Positions 1 to 7,709 of a DNA stretch of 7,709 bases are shown piece by piece. Position numbers and translations under genes: made by a program. The notes beneath the pieces are model-generated. The model saw nothing but the letters and a program-made list of their open reading frames with translations, did not search any database and was not told the origin of the DNA. The DNA comes from Desulfuromonas sp. SDB (GTDB lineage: Bacteria > SDB-A), in assembly GCA_001412365.1 (NCBI GenBank), contig LKUE01000420.1, positions 1 to 7,709 on the forward strand, given 5' to 3'. The first letter of the stretch is position 1. Each line of letters begins with the position of its first letter.

Positions 1-580
1 AATAATCCAGGTGTGAAGATTTTTTATAAAGTTTTTTTAAGGATTCAATTAAGGATTTCCTTACTTCTTCATTGGGATATAATTCCCAGGCCAGAAGAGA
101 TAATTCCTGGACAATTTGCCAATTGTCCTTTGGTTTATTGACCTCAATAAATTTCTGAGCCCACCAACTCCCTAACTTCGGTTTACCATTATCTCCCCAG
201 CGTCTGCACCATTTAATTACTTTTAATTTATCAAACCACTGTTCACTGATTAAGAACTCTAAAAATTCAGAAGATTCTGCTTCTTTTTTTTCAGTTATCA
301 AATCATCTATGGCTTGAACATATTCATCCACAGATAATTCAGTTAATTCACTCAATCTAATCCATAAATCCGATTTTTTATTTTCAAAATTCAGCAGTTT
401 CTTTAGTACTTTTTTTTCTTTTTCCGGTTGTCCTCTGACCTTATAGGCATACTCCAAACCGCGATAAGATATTTTTAATTCCTCCCCATTGTTTATTTTT
501 TGATTACAAATTCTTTCCAATTCATCAATATCGTTAAGTTTTCTTAAATTTTCCACTACATCACTGAATTGTTCACTCAT
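1..580 (-). CDS. GreA-like N-terminal helical domain protein (3' end missing)
   Basis: An open frame of 193 codons starts at ATG 580-578 and runs off the left edge without a stop, so the C-terminal part is not visible. The start is preceded by AGGAGA with a 5-base spacer. A second in-frame ATG two codons upstream lies inside that site and is unlikely to be used. The product is hydrophilic, helical and rich in Lys, Glu and Trp, with no signal peptide or membrane segment. The stretch around residues 173-193 (VRKSLIESLKKLYKKSSHLD) resembles the conserved segment before the core domain in long GreA proteins of spirochetes and related bacteria, where TPR-like helices precede a GreA/GreB transcript-cleavage domain. 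That family match is from memory of the motif. The gene lies 17 bases after pgi and is probably cotranscribed with it. It could instead be an unrelated helical repeat protein. Confidence 0.6.
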   Translation of the reverse strand, partial: MSEQFSDVVENLRKLNDIDELERICNQKINNGEELKISYRGLEYAYKVRGQPEKEKKVLKKLLNFENKKSDLWIRLSELTELSVDEYVQAIDDLITEKKEAESSEFLEFLISEQWFDKLKVIKWCRRWGDNGKPKLGSWWAQKFIEVNKPKDNWQIVQELSLLAWELYPNEEVRKSLIESLKKLYKKSSHLDY

Positions 581-585
581 GTGCA

Positions 586-591
586 TCTCCT
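586..591 (-). promoter_or_regulatory. Ribosome binding site of the GreA-like gene
   Basis: AGGAGA on the minus strand, 5 bases before ATG 580-578. It fixes the start of the GreA-like gene and leaves only 17 bases between the pgi stop and this start, consistent with one transcript. Confidence 0.7.
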
Positions 592-597
592 GTCAGT

Positions 598-1869
598 TCA
601 TCGGGGTCCACTTAATAATTTTTTCATCTCTTTCTTATAATTCTCTACTCCAGGTTGGTCGAAGGTATTTACATTCAACATCATTGAGCTGAAGAAAACA
701 CTTTGTTGAAAGAACATAACCAACTCGCCAAAATTATATTCATCTGCTTCCTCTGTCTGTATTTCAATAACTGGTCTATATCCCTGTTGATGAGCATTTT
801 TAGTTGCCTGTCTAGCGGTTGAATTCACCCAGTCCATAGAACTATTATTTAAATAATTCAGATGTTCCATCATTCCGCAGGATTTTATAGTGAATTCAAA
901 TTCGTTTTTAACTGAGAAAAAAGTCTCAAATATTTTTAATCCACCTTGTTGGAGATATTGTCCCAGCGAATGTAAATCCCGGGTATAATGAGCCACGGTC
1001 GGGAATATCCCCTTGCCCTGCTTCCCTTCACTTTCCCCGAATAGCTGCTGCCACCACAGACCAAAATCAACTGTGGAACTGGACCAAGTGGTAAACAGCT
1101 CCACCAGATATTGTTTTAAATACAGATTAAATCTGATTGCAGCATATTGCATGGCTTGATTTAATTGGGGATCAGGAGATAAAATTACATTTTTCTCCTG
1201 ATGAGCCCCCTCAATTATCTTTTCAATATCTGCCCCACTCATAGCTAAGGGGAATAAACCCACCGGACACAATACTGAAAACCTCCCCCCCACATCCGGG
1301 GGAACATTTAATTTTTCCCAGTTATTCTGACGGGCTAATTTTCCCAGCTGTCCGTCTTCAGGATCAGTTGTAGCAATTACATAATCAGATAATTTTTTTG
1401 AATTAAGTTTTTTTTTCAAATGATTTAACAAAGCCTGAAAACTTATACTGGGCTCAAGAGTGGTTCCTGACTTGCTGATGAAATTAATAGCGTATTTTTT
1501 GTCATCCAAATATTCAAGCAGTTTTTGTAGATAGGTGCCATCAAGATTGTATCCTGCAAAAACCAACTGGGGGAATCCTTTCCTGGGTAAATCCAGGAAA
1601 TCATAAGCAGCCTTTGCCCCCAGATAAGATCCTCCTATCCCCACTACCACTAAAACCTCAATGTCACCGCTAAACCGGTTCACCAGATTTTTCAGGGAAG
1701 CAAGGCTGTTTTTAGATTCCTCGGTCAAATCCAGCCAACCTAGATATTCACTTCCCCGGACCTGCCTTTTTTTCTGCTGCTGCAAGGCTTGCTGCAGCAG
1801 GGAGTAGCTTCCTTCCAGTTCCTGTTGCTCAATAAATTCCTGATTACCGGTAAAATCTATTTCAATCAT
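598..1869 (-). CDS. pgi: Glucose-6-phosphate isomerase
   Basis: Interconverts glucose 6-phosphate and fructose 6-phosphate in the cytosol, in glycolysis and gluconeogenesis. The 423 residues show the family landmarks in order: the sugar-phosphate binding loop GIGGSYLG at 77-84, SKSGTT at 132-137, the first signature DVGGRFS at 192-198 with Arg196, GESEGKQGKG at 278-287 with the presumed catalytic base Glu279, the HSLGQY segment with His300, and the second signature near the end (FDQPGVENYK, 403-412) with catalytic-type Lys412. All expected active-site residues are present, so the enzyme should be functional. The length fits the short bacterial form of about 450 residues, as in bacilli, rather than the 550-residue proteobacterial form. 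The ATG start has AGGGGG 4 bases upstream. The GreA-like gene follows by 17 bases. Residues 24-32 are a Leu/Gln-rich stretch coded by a near-palindromic DNA segment. Confidence 0.97.
   Translation of the reverse strand: MIEIDFTGNQEFIEQQELEGSYSLLQQALQQQKKRQVRGSEYLGWLDLTEESKNSLASLKNLVNRFSGDIEVLVVVGIGGSYLGAKAAYDFLDLPRKGFPQLVFAGYNLDGTYLQKLLEYLDDKKYAINFISKSGTTLEPSISFQALLNHLKKKLNSKKLSDYVIATTDPEDGQLGKLARQNNWEKLNVPPDVGGRFSVLCPVGLFPLAMSGADIEKIIEGAHQEKNVILSPDPQLNQAMQYAAIRFNLYLKQYLVELFTTWSSSTVDFGLWWQQLFGESEGKQGKGIFPTVAHYTRDLHSLGQYLQQGGLKIFETFFSVKNEFEFTIKSCGMMEHLNYLNNSSMDWVNSTARQATKNAHQQGYRPVIEIQTEEADEYNFGELVMFFQQSVFFSSMMLNVNTFDQPGVENYKKEMKKLLSGPR
1774..1800 (-). repeat. 27-base near-perfect palindrome inside pgi
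   Basis: The outer arms are CTGCTGC and GCAGCAG (7 bp), followed by a T-T mismatch, then inner arms GCAAG and CTTGC (5 bp) around a single central base. It lies in codons 24-32 of pgi, which read L-L-Q-Q-A-L-Q-Q-Q using CTG, TTG, CAG and CAA. The mRNA could form a stable hairpin about 70 bases after the start codon. It may simply be a by-product of alternating Leu and Gln codons. Confidence 0.6.
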
Positions 1870-2074: not shown

Positions 2075-3283
2075 ATGAATGTTGACAATTTTTTATTACT
2101 GCTAGAGGAACTTAATCAACTTGAAGATGAACATCAGCGCGAGGAGACCATTGGTAATACCCTAAAAGCCTTGAACAAAAAAAACAAACTTCCCTTACAT
2201 GGAGAAAAGGGTAAAGTCATCTTCGTCTGGTTTGACCAGGATAATCTAAATCAGGACTATATTTATATACGGTCTAATAATCTTAATTGGGAGAGAGATG
2301 GATATTTAGGAAGATATTACAACGGTAAATACAGATTAGCCATAAGAACTTATCATCAACTGGACAAATTACTGTACAAATTTGAGATAGATGATAACTG
2401 GTTATCCGATCCCTTGAATATCAATGTAGAATGGGATGGTTTTATCGGTCCCCGTCTGCATAAGAATATGAATTCAGTAATTCACTTTTTACCTGATCCT
2501 TCTTGGCCCGAAGGCAGAATGGTAAGACATCATATTAATTTTGAATTCGAAGGAATGACAATTTCCAAGGATCTCTTTGTGGTTCTTCCTCCTGATTACG
2601 ACAGAAGCAGGAAAACCTATCCGGTGCTGTACCTTAATCATGGAGAACATTATGCTACCTATCTGGAAGCTCAGAAAACTCTTATTCAGCATATCAATTC
2701 TAAAACAGTGGTGGATCCGCCAATTATGGTTATGATCCCCCTGAACTGTGATGATATTGCTGATCTTGATGAGCAAGATCTTTACTGCCCTTCCGGAAGA
2801 TTTTACCGGATGTTCCAAAGAATGTTTATTGATAAAATTATATCCTCAGTGGATAATTCCTTCCGCACAAAAAATGACTACAAATACAGGGCTTTAGGGG
2901 GACTGGGCAGCAGCGGGACCTTTTCCATCATCATGGGCATTGAACATCCTCACCTGTTTAAATACATAATATCTCAGGGAACCAAATATTTTCCTTTTGA
3001 TCGTTTTTCCCATCACCAATCTCATCGGGATCCTTCTAAAACCAATATTTTTTATCTGGATTGCGGGGAAGTTGGCTCAGTGGAACAAACTAAAAAAGTT
3101 TCCCATCTACTAACTCAAAGAGGATATTCATCAGTAAATACGGTTATATTTGACCAGGAAGATGACAACTGCTGGAATCTAAAAAAACGGTTGAGTTCGA
3201 TTTTCACCAGCCTTTACGGACGTTTCCCCCTGGGAAGCGATTATGAAAATAATTACTCAGCTGATCTCACCCCCCATGATTGA
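2075..3283 (+). CDS. Esterase-like alpha/beta-hydrolase with N-terminal early-set domain, catalytic triad apparently lost
   Basis: The 402 residues have the architecture of enterochelin-esterase (Fes/esterase D) proteins. A helical N-terminus (1-40) is followed by an early-set, carbohydrate-binding-48-like domain (about 45-138, with the typical DP-N and NSV motifs at 112-115 and 133-135), then an alpha/beta-hydrolase domain (about 150-382). There is no signal peptide, so it is probably cytosolic. The fold landmarks are clear: YPVLYLNHG at 182-190, the DNSFRT segment at 260-265, EHPHLF at 290-295 and YLDCG at 327-331. The residues expected for catalysis are not. The nucleophile motif GxSxG reads GLGSSG (276-281), placing Gly278 at the serine position. 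The acid position after LDCG is Gly334. The usual GGHxW near the end reads DDNCW (363-367), with no histidine between 345 and 400. It is probably a non-catalytic binding or sensing protein, unless Ser279 serves with other partners. Its end overlaps the HD-GYP gene, suggesting a joint role. Confidence 0.8.
   Translation: MNVDNFLLLLEELNQLEDEHQREETIGNTLKALNKKNKLPLHGEKGKVIFVWFDQDNLNQDYIYIRSNNLNWERDGYLGRYYNGKYRLAIRTYHQLDKLLYKFEIDDNWLSDPLNINVEWDGFIGPRLHKNMNSVIHFLPDPSWPEGRMVRHHINFEFEGMTISKDLFVVLPPDYDRSRKTYPVLYLNHGEHYATYLEAQKTLIQHINSKTVVDPPIMVMIPLNCDDIADLDEQDLYCPSGRFYRMFQRMFIDKIISSVDNSFRTKNDYKYRALGGLGSSGTFSIIMGIEHPHLFKYIISQGTKYFPFDRFSHHQSHRDPSKTNIFYLDCGEVGSVEQTKKVSHLLTQRGYSSVNTVIFDQEDDNCWNLKKRLSSIFTSLYGRFPLGSDYENNYSADLTPHD
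3232..3237 (+). promoter_or_regulatory. Weak ribosome binding site of the GAF-HD-GYP gene
   Basis: GGGAAG lies 5 bases before ATG 3243, inside the end of the esterase-like gene. It supports the upstream start over the in-frame ATG at 3276, which has no such site but overlaps the esterase-like stop (ATGATTGA) and could be reached by re-initiation. Confidence 0.4.
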
Positions 3284-4457
3284 CACAGTTAAGCTACTAT
3301 ACCGATTGAACAAGATTGGCATTGCCCTCTCCGTTTTGTCTGATGTTAATTCTTTTTTCGAATACATTTTAAAGGAAGCACGGGAATTCACTAACTGTGA
3401 CGCGGGGACTCTTTATACTGTACATGATGATCAGTTAGAATTAACAGTCAGTCAAAATCAAACCCTTTCGGAAAGAGCCGGAGATAATGTGGTAAAAACA
3501 AGCTACATCAATGAAATGATGCCCATATCCAATCAAAGTATAGCCGGATATGTCACTTTAACCGGAAAAACTGTGAATATTGAAAATGCTTATCAAATAC
3601 CCAGCCGATTTCCATTCAAACATAATAAATCTTTTGATCTGAAAGCGGATTATAAAACCATTTCCATTCTAACCGTACCCATGAAAGATCCCTCTGAAAG
3701 GATACTGGGAGTTTTACAATTGATAAACCACAAAGAGCAAAATGGTGATATTGTAACTTTCCCCGAAAAACTGGTGGAATTAACTCAATCATTGGCTTCC
3801 CAGGCAGCAGTGGCATATCGAAATGTAACCTATCAAAATGAATTGAAACAAGCTCATTATGACACTATCTTCAGACTTTCGGTAGCGGCTGAATTCAAAG
3901 ATACCGACACTGCCAATCATATCAAAAGGATGAGTAATTATTGTTTTCTTATTGCTGAAAATTTAGGATTACCGGTGGAGGAGCAGGAATTAATTCTTCA
4001 TGCTGCTCCCATGCACGATATTGGAAAAATCGGCATTCCCGATTCAATTCTTCTTAAACCAGCAAAATTAAATAAAACTGAATGGGAGGAAATGAAAAAG
4101 CACACTATCTACGGGGCAAAAATATTGGAAAATGCCCGGGACAAGATCACTGAAACTTCCCGGTTAATCGCCCTGCACCATCATGAACGATGGGATGGAA
4201 AGGGATATCCCTTTGGCCTGCATAAAGAGGAAATACCCATATATGCAAGAATTTGTACAATTGCCGATGTCTTTGATGCTCTTACTTCTAAACGACCCTA
4301 TAAACAATCATTTCCCCTGGAAAAATCCCTTAAAATTATCAAAATGGAATCGGGAACTATTTTCGATCCTGAATTTGTGGAAGCATTTCTGGCTTATCCT
4401 GATAAAATCAGTCAGATAAAAGAAAAATATGTAGCCGATCAGCATTCCTCTGATTAG
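3243..4457 (+). CDS. GAF-HD-GYP protein, predicted cyclic-di-GMP phosphodiesterase
   Basis: The predicted role is cytosolic hydrolysis of the second messenger cyclic-di-GMP, controlled by a ligand or protein bound to the GAF domain. A GAF domain spans about 20-195 and an HD-GYP domain about 205-388 of 404 residues. The metal and signature residues are all present: Glu217, His226, the HD pair His258-Asp259 in AAPMHDIGKIGIP, His287, the HHERWDGKGYP motif at 313-323 and Asp342 in IADVFDAL. The enzyme therefore looks active. There is no membrane segment or signal peptide. ATG 3243 overlaps the esterase-like gene by 41 bases. An alternative in-frame ATG at 3276 (residue 12) overlaps its stop by 8 bases and would leave both domains intact. 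Either way the two are translationally coupled. Typical partners in other genomes are response regulators, but here the sensor is the GAF domain. Confidence 0.93.
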   Translation: MKIITQLISPPMIDTVKLLYRLNKIGIALSVLSDVNSFFEYILKEAREFTNCDAGTLYTVHDDQLELTVSQNQTLSERAGDNVVKTSYINEMMPISNQSIAGYVTLTGKTVNIENAYQIPSRFPFKHNKSFDLKADYKTISILTVPMKDPSERILGVLQLINHKEQNGDIVTFPEKLVELTQSLASQAAVAYRNVTYQNELKQAHYDTIFRLSVAAEFKDTDTANHIKRMSNYCFLIAENLGLPVEEQELILHAAPMHDIGKIGIPDSILLKPAKLNKTEWEEMKKHTIYGAKILENARDKITETSRLIALHHHERWDGKGYPFGLHKEEIPIYARICTIADVFDALTSKRPYKQSFPLEKSLKIIKMESGTIFDPEFVEAFLAYPDKISQIKEKYVADQHSSD

Positions 4458-4507
4458 TACCAATTCTGAATATACCCGCTGATAAAAATTTGATGAACTT
4501 ATTCCTA

Positions 4508-4560
4508 ATCTGCTTAAGATAATACTTGATCAGAACAAGCTGAATATTAGATAAGCAGAT
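4508..4560. repeat. Inverted repeat at the convergent gene ends, possible weak bidirectional terminator
   Basis: Arms ATCTGCTTA (4508-4516) and TAAGCAGAT (4552-4560) match perfectly over 9 bp, and a smaller CTTG/CAAG pair (4525-4528, 4536-4539) lies between them. The repeat spans the stop of the CcdA-like gene at 4530. The 72-base gap between the converging genes is where a terminator is expected, but the stem is AT-rich, the loop long and there is no T-tract, so termination by it is uncertain. Confidence 0.25.
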
Positions 4561-5633
4561 AATCCGAACAATAACAATGAAATGAATATCATAATTTTTG
4601 AATAATGGCGATTAACTAAATTTTCAAAAACTTTTAAGTTGGGAACAAAAAAATAAAACACCACTACCCCCACCAGGGGAGCTACAAAGCAGATATTGTA
4701 AACTAGCAGATAGACAATATCCGTCAAATGAAATTCATGGATCATCACCAGGGTGGGAAAATATATCTGCCCGGTGCAGATTAACTCAGCAAAACCAACC
4801 AGCATTCCAACTAAAATCCAAAGAGGTAAAAAGGACTTCTGCCCCCATTTTATCAATTTATGGATTTTTCTGTGATCAGATTTGGATAATCCTGACAGAT
4901 ACACTTTCTTTTTTGCCAGTTTGACTACTATACTCACCCCAGCAAATATGCCCATGGATATAGCTGCCAGTTTAATCCCTGTGGAAAAATATGGAATGAT
5001 CACTATAAAACTTTTCATGAATCGCAGTATCCCCACTCCAAAAATAAAATAAAACAGAAAATTTCCCAAGATGAACATCCCCGCAGAGATAAAGATTTTA
5101 TAACGGGATGAATGCTTTAAACTCATATAGGATAATAAAAACAGAAGAACTGAAAAAGCACAGGGATTTATACCATCACCTAATCCCAATAATACCACTG
5201 AAAACCAGGAAAGATCAGTTAGTGGGGGGGGATCAGAATCTTTTTGACTGCGGTTGTAAAAATAATACAGTAGCAGGGAATCACTTATATCCATTCCGGT
5301 TAAAACAGTATCACCCACAAATATTGCTGGGAATACATAGTAATCCTGTTGATTTTTAGCTTGTAATTGTGACCACCTAATTTGATATTCTTTTCTTCCT
5401 TGATTAGTATAAGGGTCATATCCATAAATTTGGAATATGGGATCGTACTGCTTTATGGATTCCAGACGGTTATATAAATTTCTGCATTTAGAGCAAGTAG
5501 ATGGGGCAAAATAATAAACTGGTTCAGAAAATAAACTCCCCCCCATCCCCATAACCCAGATCAGGGCAAACATTAAGGAAACAGGAGATTTTTGATTAAT
5601 AAAGCTACATCTATATTTAATCCATCCGGTCAA
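4530..5633 (-). CDS. Thioredoxin-like/CcdA-DsbD-type membrane thiol-disulfide protein
   Basis: Proteins of this type move reducing power across the membrane to extracytoplasmic thiols, as in cytochrome c maturation or disulfide repair. The 367 residues begin with a hydrophobic segment (17-34) that is a signal peptide or anchor. A small thioredoxin/glutaredoxin-like domain follows (about 38-128) with the redox pair Cys47-Ser-Lys-Cys50 and a cis-proline-type VFPAIFVGD (100-108). After a Pro-rich linker (134-137) comes a CcdA/DsbD-like core of about six membrane helices, roughly 143-168, 181-204, 209-238, 268-290, 304-329 and 346-366. The core carries paired cysteines in GINPCAF (Cys158) and ICTGQIYFP (Cys286), matching the DsbD/CcdA redox pair. 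The start is TTG at 5633-5631, preceded by GAAGG, and it overlaps the response regulator by 17 bases. A downstream ATG (residue 21) has no ribosome site and would cut into the signal segment. A C8 tract lies in the linker and a G7 tract in the signal segment. Confidence 0.88.
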   Translation of the reverse strand: MTGWIKYRCSFINQKSPVSLMFALIWVMGMGGSLFSEPVYYFAPSTCSKCRNLYNRLESIKQYDPIFQIYGYDPYTNQGRKEYQIRWSQLQAKNQQDYYVFPAIFVGDTVLTGMDISDSLLLYYFYNRSQKDSDPPPLTDLSWFSVVLLGLGDGINPCAFSVLLFLLSYMSLKHSSRYKIFISAGMFILGNFLFYFIFGVGILRFMKSFIVIIPYFSTGIKLAAISMGIFAGVSIVVKLAKKKVYLSGLSKSDHRKIHKLIKWGQKSFLPLWILVGMLVGFAELICTGQIYFPTLVMIHEFHLTDIVYLLVYNICFVAPLVGVVVFYFFVPNLKVFENLVNRHYSKIMIFISLLLFGLSAYLIFSLF

Positions 5634-6537
5634 TGTAACCTTCGGATTTTAAAGTGAACAGTTTCTCAATTATGTCATAACTGGAATAAGGCAGTAATCT
5701 GATCATGTCCTCAATTTCCTTTTTATCCTTGATCATCTTTATCAATTTACCCAGCAGTTCATCATCTTTGACCTCAATTTCCGAACAAATCTTAAATAAG
5801 GAGTTAACCGAACCGAGTGATTTCAGCATCTTTTTTTCTTCATCATACTGGTGGGCAAATTCCAAAATCATCCTTTCCAGGTTTTGATCAAATTCACGAC
5901 CTTCCACTAATCCTTCTTCAAAAGAGAAGAAGCCCTTATTCTGAGTTAAAATCATGTAAAATGCAGGCCAACCGGTGCGTTGTCCGAATTTAGCTTTAAC
6001 CACCTTACCTTGATTCAAGTAAATAATCCCCTTGTTTTCTGAGCCATCTATTTTAAGCATTCCCGATTTAGTTGATACGGAGAGATTTTGAATTATATCA
6101 ATTATGGGCATTACTGCTAAATTACCTCTAATTCCTTCTGATTCTAAATTTCGGATTTTCTTGGAAATACTCAAATGAGCCTTGGCTCTGGCAAACAACT
6201 CCTCAAACACAAATGGTTTCACCAGATAATCTTCAGCTCCTTCTTTAAGACCTCTAATTTTATTTTCAATGGCCTTCTTGCCCGATATCAGTATAAAGGG
6301 GACATCTTTGGTTTTAGGATCCTTTTTTACTGTTTCTAAAAGTGAATAACCATCAATACCGGGCATCATAATATCAGAGATAATGATATCAGGAAGATGA
6401 TGATTGACTTTTAACACTGCATCCATCCCGTCATAACTGACCACTACTCTCCATTTCCTCTGCTCAAAATTAAACTTTATCAGTTCCACCAGTTCTCTGT
6501 CATCATCTACTATTAATACCAATGGATATTCTTGCAT
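5617..6537 (-). CDS. Response regulator with REC and PATAN (DUF4388) domains
   Basis: It receives a phosphoryl group from the upstream kinase. The receiver domain (about 5-122) is complete: acidic pocket Asp11-Asp13, phospho-acceptor Asp55 in IISDIMMPGIDG, switch Ser85 and Lys107 in LVKPF. A PATAN/DUF4388 domain follows at about 134-230 (motifs GNLAVMPIIDIIQNLS, SGMLKI and GIIYLNQGKVVKA). The C-terminal 50-75 residues are a helical tail with the LxxLxxEGYI pattern (293-302) often found after DUF4388. No recognisable DNA-binding domain of the OmpR, NarL or NtrC type is present, so output is probably through protein contacts. A winged-helix-like fold in the tail cannot be excluded. The ATG start has AGGG 9 bases upstream and lies 15 bases after the kinase stop. 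The 3' end overlaps the CcdA-like gene by 17 bases, so the three genes form one operon. Confidence 0.92.
   Translation of the reverse strand: MQEYPLVLIVDDDRELVELIKFNFEQRKWRVVVSYDGMDAVLKVNHHLPDIIISDIMMPGIDGYSLLETVKKDPKTKDVPFILISGKKAIENKIRGLKEGAEDYLVKPFVFEELFARAKAHLSISKKIRNLESEGIRGNLAVMPIIDIIQNLSVSTKSGMLKIDGSENKGIIYLNQGKVVKAKFGQRTGWPAFYMILTQNKGFFSFEEGLVEGREFDQNLERMILEFAHQYDEEKKMLKSLGSVNSLFKICSEIEVKDDELLGKLIKMIKDKKEIEDMIRLLPYSSYDIIEKLFTLKSEGYIDRMD
5639..5643 (-). promoter_or_regulatory. Ribosome binding site for the TTG start of the CcdA-like gene
   Basis: GAAGG on the minus strand, 5 bases before TTG 5633-5631 and inside the response regulator gene. It decides for the rare TTG start and points to translational coupling. 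Confidence 0.5.
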
Positions 6538-6546
6538 AATTTAATT

Positions 6547-6554
6547 CCCTACCT
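6547..6554 (-). promoter_or_regulatory. Ribosome binding site of the response regulator
   Basis: AGGTAGGG on the minus strand, ending 9 bases before ATG 6537-6535. It overlaps the TAG stop of the kinase (6555-6553), which favours coupled translation of kinase and regulator. Confidence 0.55.
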
Positions 6555-7709
6555 AAATAATAATTGTAAAAACACTGCCTTTGCCAGGTTTGCTTTCCAC
6601 CTTAATTTCAGCTTGATGGAGCTGAATTATTCTTTTGACCAGAGATAAACCCAAACCAGTTCCGGGGATGGATGATACTCGGTCAGACCTGTAAAATTCA
6701 TTGAATATGTTTTCTACATCCTTGTCTTCCAATCCCATTCCTTTGTCCTGAATTTTAATAATCCAGTTGGGATCATCCCTGATTAAATCTATTATAACTT
6801 TTTGTTTACAATTTGAGTATTTTATAGCATTGTTCAGTAAATTCTCAACTGCTCTTTTCATATAATTTTTATCAACTTCAGCCAATGCACTGGTTTTGGG
6901 TAAATTCAATACTAAATTAATTTCCTTCTGATAAGCATAATCAACCTGAGACAAGTAAGCTTCTCTGATCAATTGTTTTAAATCAGTGGAGGTTATATCC
7001 ACTAACTGGTTAAGATTCTGAAGGTGAGATAACTCTAATAGATCTTCAATCATTTTAGTTATCTCATTAGACTTCAGCAGTATGGAAGTTAAAAACCTTT
7101 TCTGCAAATCTACAGGGACTTCACTTCTAAGCATAGTATTAGCGTAACCGCTTATAACGGTTAATGGATTTTTAATGTCATGAGCAATTCCCCGGAGTAA
7201 GGTTTCCTTTTCTTTCTGCAGGTTGATCAATTCCCTATTGGTTAAAAATACATCCAATTCACTAATCACCAGCTGAAAAAACCCGACCAGGGTCATGAAT
7301 TCCTCTCTTGCCGGTTCTTCTCTGATTAGTGGATCATCCAGCATCAACCAACCCGCATATTGAGAAGCTCTTCTAACCAAAGGTACCAGGATTATATAAT
7401 TCGGTTTCCAATACTTAGATTTATCTTTTCCCAGTAATTTATCAATTCTCTTAAATCCTGGTACTATATAGTAAATACCCTGATTATTGATCATCTCATT
7501 GGATAAATTTTCCAATTTATCAGGTAAATCATTGGCAATATTATTTTCAATGTCCGTTTCTTCCTCTTTTATATAACCGGCAAAAGAATAATAAATTTTA
7601 TTGTTCAAATTGTAGCAAAAGGTAATTTTTTCCCACCCGGTATTTTTTGCTGCATTTACTGCAACTTTCATTTTCCTGGGGACATCTTCTGCTAAAATAA
7701 TTTTTTTCC
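6553..7709 (-). CDS. GAF-domain sensor histidine kinase (5' end outside the window)
   Basis: This is the sensor kinase for the adjacent response regulator. The frame has an ATG at 7671-7669, but it stays open without a stop to the right edge. The 12 codons before that ATG continue a GAF-like helix (KKIILAEDVPRK, then MKVAVNAAKNTGWEKI), and the only ribosome-site-like bases (AGGA) are too close to the ATG. The true start is therefore most likely beyond 7709. Counting from that ATG, a GAF-like domain covers 1-145, a dimerisation/phospho-acceptor helix follows with His164 in GIAHDIKNPLTVISGY, and the ATPase domain is at about 260-372. The ATPase has the N box ENLLNNAIKYS (276-286), the G1 box DKGMG (309-313), the FYRSD segment and the G2 box GTGLGLSLV (337-345). 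All key residues are present. No membrane helix is visible, so the part seen is cytosolic. Domains further upstream are unknown. Confidence 0.93.
   Translation of the reverse strand, partial: KKIILAEDVPRKMKVAVNAAKNTGWEKITFCYNLNNKIYYSFAGYIKEEETDIENNIANDLPDKLENLSNEMINNQGIYYIVPGFKRIDKLLGKDKSKYWKPNYIILVPLVRRASQYAGWLMLDDPLIREEPAREEFMTLVGFFQLVISELDVFLTNRELINLQKEKETLLRGIAHDIKNPLTVISGYANTMLRSEVPVDLQKRFLTSILLKSNEITKMIEDLLELSHLQNLNQLVDITSTDLKQLIREAYLSQVDYAYQKEINLVLNLPKTSALAEVDKNYMKRAVENLLNNAIKYSNCKQKVIIDLIRDDPNWIIKIQDKGMGLEDKDVENIFNEFYRSDRVSSIPGTGLGLSLVKRIIQLHQAEIKVESKPGKGSVFTIII

Follow-up and report, generated by a model that had tools for sequence, protein, structure and literature searches.

The 7,709-nucleotide stretch of Desulfuromonas sp. 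SDB DNA analysed here (the window) contained a gene for an esterase-fold protein, hereafter the pseudo-esterase, and the conclusion that it is a maintained protein without a serine-hydrolase triad is well supported and held with high confidence. Through computation we found the loss of the triad, shared ancestry, conservation, overlap of the gene with the one downstream, and intact metal ligands in the HD-GYP protein that the latter encodes. The open reading frame was uninterrupted over its 402 codons (Table 1). Its product matched the Pfam Esterase family (PF00756, Putative esterase) over residues 167-302 with an E value of 1.1e-14, and the score of 55.3 bits, above the cut-off of 22, placed it in this family.

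Table 1. Features of the pseudo-esterase locus; positions refer to the window unless another locus is named.
Feature	Position	Strand	Remark
Pseudo-esterase gene (402 aa)	2075..3283	+	Helical N-terminal segment, CBM48-like early-set domain, triad-less esterase-fold domain
CBM48-like early-set domain, residues 46-150	2210..2524	+	Most conserved region (50-53% identical to orthologs)
Alpha/beta-hydrolase (CE1/PF00756) domain, residues 151-390	2525..3244	+
Oxyanion-loop region, residues 190-195 (GEHYAT)	2642..2659	+	5/6 invariant in four orthologs
Former nucleophile position, Gly278	2906..2908	+	Ser in 16/16 triad-type relatives
Former acid position, Gly334	3074..3076	+	Gly in 4/4 orthologous proteins including the window's
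Former histidine position, Glu362	3158..3160	+	Gln in three orthologs, His in 16/16 relatives
ATGATTGA, overlap of pseudo-esterase stop and HD-GYP start	3276..3283	+	Conserved
GAF-HD-GYP c-di-GMP phosphodiesterase gene (predicted)	3276..4457	+	Alternative ATG at 3243
Phosphoglucose isomerase (PGI) gene, divergent	598..1869	-	Neighbour in 4/4 genomes
PF00756 paralog with apparent triad	L011 1123-2118	-	Counterparts in L014, L015, L016

Loss of the catalytic triad

The three triad positions were placed through sequence alignments of 20 proteins, composed of the window protein, three orthologs and 16 relatives from other phyla. An earlier note had put the nucleophile on Gly278, the acid on Gly334 and the histidine on Asp364. 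The first two positions were the same in our alignment, whereas the third fell on Glu362, two residues away; the loop contained no His either way. As the note had also claimed, no His lies between residues 344 and 401: from residue 344 on, histidines were found only at these two positions.

In the nucleophile column the window protein and its three orthologs had Gly, Glu, Lys and Lys, so that the Ser required by the GxSxG motif is absent, and all 16 relatives had Ser. The acid column contained Gly in all four, and Asp or Glu in 12 of the 16 relatives; the catalytic acid is thus missing. At the catalytic His column we found Glu in the window protein and Gln in each ortholog, against His in every relative. 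Ser and His therefore occupied the triad positions in 0/4 proteins of this phylum and in 16/16 triad-type relatives, a difference not due to chance. The sequence context is GGLGSSG around Gly278 and DCGEVGS around Gly334, with Glu332, which is invariant in the four, two residues before the latter. In the tree a branch supported at 100/100 separated the four from the relatives, with weak support for its attachment point. The earlier note had raised the question whether orthologs share the loss, and all three do. Since the loss is common to two genera, it is no recent lesion.

Two serines stand beside the elbow in GLGSSG, which might suggest that the window protein is a still-active serine esterase through a shifted Ser279 or Ser280. 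We rejected this active site, because the orthologs have no Ser there (GLEEGA, GFKEGA and GFKAGA); the His loop also lacks His in 4/4, and activity of this kind is hardly credible.

Each of the four genomes also encodes a second PF00756 protein, in which a Ser is kept at the elbow and Asp and His are apparently present; these paralogs served as an internal control. They directly precede an AlgI-like MBOAT (acyltransferase-like) gene.

Conservation of the gene and its HD-GYP neighbour

The phylum sample comprised four genomes in two genera, including the window genome. The pseudo-esterase gene was present and intact in all of them, with no stops or frameshifts, in line with the claim that it is maintained rather than decaying. 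Searching 386 genomes with the ortholog profile gave strong matches (E < 1e-200) only in the four of this phylum, and the next best match had an E value of 3e-20. Scans of viral contigs, for which the queries were the window protein, two relatives and the ortholog alignment, yielded no homologs. A public contig labelled candidate division WOR-3 bacterium Zod_Metabat.185 contains one of the orthologs; we took this ortholog to be the match in genome G002, as the contig position is equal, and the NCBI label may differ from the phylum assignment.

Between the genera the pseudo-esterases showed 36-38% identity, and the parts differed: 33-38% for the helical segment, 50-53% for the CBM48-like domain and 28-30% for the esterase domain. 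Invariant positions in the four made up 44% of the CBM48-like domain versus 22% of the esterase domain. Within the latter, the oxyanion loop had 5/6 and the acid loop 5/7 invariant residues, compared with 1/6 for the elbow and 1/9 for the His loop; these loops were chosen post hoc. H192, T195, E198 and E332 occur in all four pseudo-esterases and seldom in triad-type relatives. Judged from these sequences, the conservation of the loops and of H192, E198 and E332 is compatible with a binding pocket that was retained or remodelled, without proving one. The same residues (H192, T195, E198 and E332, plus D329 and C330) could instead form a new, lineage-specific catalytic site for another reaction, and the two conserved loops in a domain of only 22% invariance would agree with this. 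However, a known catalytic signature is absent, the residues are on different loops by sequence, and the esterase domain is weakly conserved overall, so a new enzyme appears improbable.

The gene order divergent PGI, pseudo-esterase and GAF-HD-GYP was the same in 4/4 genomes, and so was the frame overlap ATGATTGA between the latter two genes. The downstream signalling gene noticed earlier thus overlaps the pseudo-esterase gene, and its counterparts do so in the three other genomes. The HD-GYP reading frame has two possible starts, ATG 3243, preceded by GGGAAG, and ATG 3276, with which the orthologs agree. No clear ribosome site was found before 3276 in the window; in the orthologs a purine-rich ribosome site precedes the HD-GYP gene, and therefore coupling is not obligatory there. 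This bears on whether the pseudo-esterase is a decaying gene retained solely through translational coupling to HD-GYP. The fast-changing esterase domain and the window start without a clear ribosome site would suit such decay, but the absence of stops and frameshifts in four genomes, the 44% of invariant CBM48-like positions and the ribosome site of the orthologs argue against it, and we consider it very unlikely.

The HD-GYP protein is a homolog of PmGH (4mcw), a GAF-HD-GYP c-di-GMP phosphodiesterase (E 1.4e-78). In the alignment to PmGH, of which the metal ligands are listed in PMC4159591, the HD, H, HH and D ligands and the GYP motif were kept, with the difference that E185 of PmGH is Asp in the window's HD-GYP protein. 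Its identity across genera was 68-70%, versus 36-38% for the pseudo-esterase. GGDEF proteins were found in 4/4 phylum genomes, and c-di-GMP is therefore probably used in these four organisms.

Fold, domain layout and origin

From four sequences, AlphaFold2 modelled the esterase domain (residues 149-382) at a pLDDT of 74 and a pTM of 0.77. In this model a strand covers 272-276 and a helix starts at 278, the location expected of the nucleophile elbow. For a second AlphaFold2 model the three usable esterases came from pattern scans; a full-length model from two sequences reached a pLDDT of 35 and was not used. Through VIA-align the domain model matched the CE1 feruloyl esterase 7xrt with Z 21.7 and rmsd 2.7 over 220 aligned residues. 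Scores were similar for the CBM48-CE1 structures 7b5v and 6rzo (CE1 matches at Z about 21-22), and the Fes or IroE-like structures 3c87, 2b20 and 3gff gave Z about 18-20, with Fes at about 20. Together with the Pfam match, the Z of 21.7 to a CE1 esterase agrees with the esterase fold claimed before.

By sequence, CBM48-CE1 esterases were the best matches of the ortholog profile among solved structures (E 2e-10 to 4e-8). The CBM48-CE1 feruloyl esterase 6rzo was among the best of them, with E 2e-10 to the profile and 3.5e-10 to the window protein. The layout of Fes and esterase D proteins proposed earlier thus stands for the early-set N-domain and the esterase fold, whereas the closest solved relatives are CBM48-CE1 enzymes and Fes is lower in the list.

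Pfam CBM48 and AMPK1_CBM did not directly match the window protein, and searches of PDB sequences with the early-set domain alone returned matches at chance level only. Comparison by hhalign of its N-domain with the AMPK1_CBM-matching N-domain of L008 gave 77.5% probability. Relatives with the same layout match Pfam CBM_48, and the relatives of the window protein also match Pfam Enterochelin_N. W72, K102 and W109 of the domain are common to triad-bearing relatives. In CE1 enzymes, CBM48 packs against the CE1 domain and faces the active site, and none of the glycans tested was bound by CE1-attached CBM48 domains (PMC8040265); a glycan ligand is therefore possible for the window protein, not established.

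The pseudo-esterase could also act independently of HD-GYP, for instance as a glycogen- or polysaccharide-associated scaffold in sugar metabolism, with the HD-GYP gene merely co-transcribed. Evidence on this side includes the CBM48-like domain as the best conserved part, with its W72, K102 and W109 common to relatives, the GlgA-family (Glyco_transf_5) and amylase-family proteins in 4/4 genomes, and the PGI neighbour in all four. However, PGI is divergent, whereas the pseudo-esterase and HD-GYP genes overlap in 4/4, and both the missing glycan affinity of CE1-attached CBM48 domains and the lack of a direct Pfam CBM48 or AMPK1_CBM match speak against it. We regard the scaffold role as a possible but rather unlikely one.

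Relatives in other phyla (L117-L123) are composed, as the window protein is, of a helical segment, a CBM48-like domain and an esterase domain, and the profile comparison of the N-terminal parts gave E 1e-6 over 120 columns from residue 2. A hydrophobic leader was present in most relatives of this layout and in 0/4 pseudo-esterases. Several of these relatives also have C-terminal tails which, in our reading, resemble those on secreted proteins. The simplest reading would be descent of the pseudo-esterase from an exported esterase through loss of both export signal and triad; considering the missing signal peptide, the protein is probably cytosolic.

Possible role and known counterparts

Because the overlap is conserved and c-di-GMP enzymes tuned by partners have precedents, we judge the most likely role of the pseudo-esterase, probably a cytosolic protein, to be that of a partner which binds a ligand and tunes the adjoining GAF-HD-GYP c-di-GMP phosphodiesterase; we propose it tentatively, at somewhat below even chances. 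The earlier note had suggested a glycan or ligand sensor that feeds the HD-GYP protein, and this part of its reading likewise stays a tentative proposal. The ancestor would have been an exported CE1-type esterase of helical, CBM48-like and CE1 layout, which lost the export signal and the three catalytic residues and retained above all the CBM48-like domain, together with the fold and both the oxyanion and the acid loop. A ligand would be bound, probably where the CBM48-like domain and the esterase domain form a cleft, and the ligand-binding protein might then adjust the neighbouring phosphodiesterase, whose active site is intact by sequence. Both the binding of a ligand and the effect on the phosphodiesterase are inferred. 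The better-conserved HD-GYP protein, which has its own GAF domain, may not depend on the pseudo-esterase. A more specific form of the partner role is a phylum-wide cytosolic receptor, formerly an exported polysaccharide esterase, in which the remodelled pocket (H192, E198, E332) would bind an acylated sugar or something similar and directly switch the GAF-HD-GYP phosphodiesterase; this form is speculative and on present evidence unlikely.

If the receptor reading is true, it would add a novel input type to c-di-GMP signalling. An exported-type, polymer-degrading esterase appears to have turned into a cytosolic pseudoenzyme tied to a second-messenger enzyme, and if the link is real it would provide an esterase-derived sensor type for c-di-GMP signalling and a testable enzyme-to-receptor model. 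There are known examples of non-catalytic proteins with an esterase fold and, separately, of c-di-GMP enzymes controlled by partners. In a limited literature search we found no description of their combination, neither as a pseudoenzyme with a hydrolase fold nor as a pseudoenzyme with c-di-GMP.

Among known systems, the feruloyl and acetyl xylan esterases wtsFae1A (6rzo), DmCE1B (7b5v/7b6b) and Bacint_01033 (6mou) likewise have a CBM48 followed by a CE1 domain, and CBM48-CE1 esterases are also among the best fold matches of the window esterase domain. These enzymes are catalytic and participate in polysaccharide degradation, whereas the window protein has no triad and no signal peptide and its gene overlaps a signalling gene. 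The enterochelin esterase Fes also has an early-set N-domain and an esterase fold; however, Fes and IroE are active enzymes, and their fold and sequence matches are weaker than those of the CBM48-CE1 enzymes. MPT51 is a secreted mycobacterial protein without a CBM48-like domain or an HD-GYP partner. As an alpha/beta-hydrolase that is described as non-catalytic (Wilson et al. 2004, as cited in PMC6119806), MPT51 (FbpC1) would be a precedent for a maintained inactive member of the esterase fold.

For PmGH, the counterpart of the downstream gene product, no pseudo-esterase partner is known to us. Tuning of c-di-GMP enzymes through partner proteins is well established, and separate sensory proteins exert it in H-NOX with diguanylate cyclases, PapB-PapA and EIIAGlc-PdeS (PMC8846402). 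To these the window pair, with its conserved gene overlap, may be likened. An example of a partner-regulated c-di-GMP enzyme using a pseudo-esterase was not found in our limited literature search.

In this region the genes generally keep their order, and L013 has flanking genes like those of the window on either side of the pair. The adjacency of the pseudo-esterase and HD-GYP genes may thus partly reflect general synteny, as PGI and the L013 flanks are conserved too. The PGI encoded at 598-1869 (-) is short (423 aa), with a partial Pfam match and 43-44% identity between the two genera. Beyond PGI, L013 encodes at 2144-4636 (-) an 830-aa protein that seemingly ends in a Gre-factor-like domain, and part of its counterpart is located at 2-586 (-) of the window. 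The window gene at 4530-5633 (-) encodes an apparent CxxC redoxin-like start and a CcdA/SfLAP-like membrane part, for which the family matches are weak; in L013 the counterpart of this membrane part adjoins the HD-GYP gene. Also near the HD-GYP gene, the region at 5617-7671 (-) of the window encodes a response regulator with DUF4388 beside a histidine kinase.
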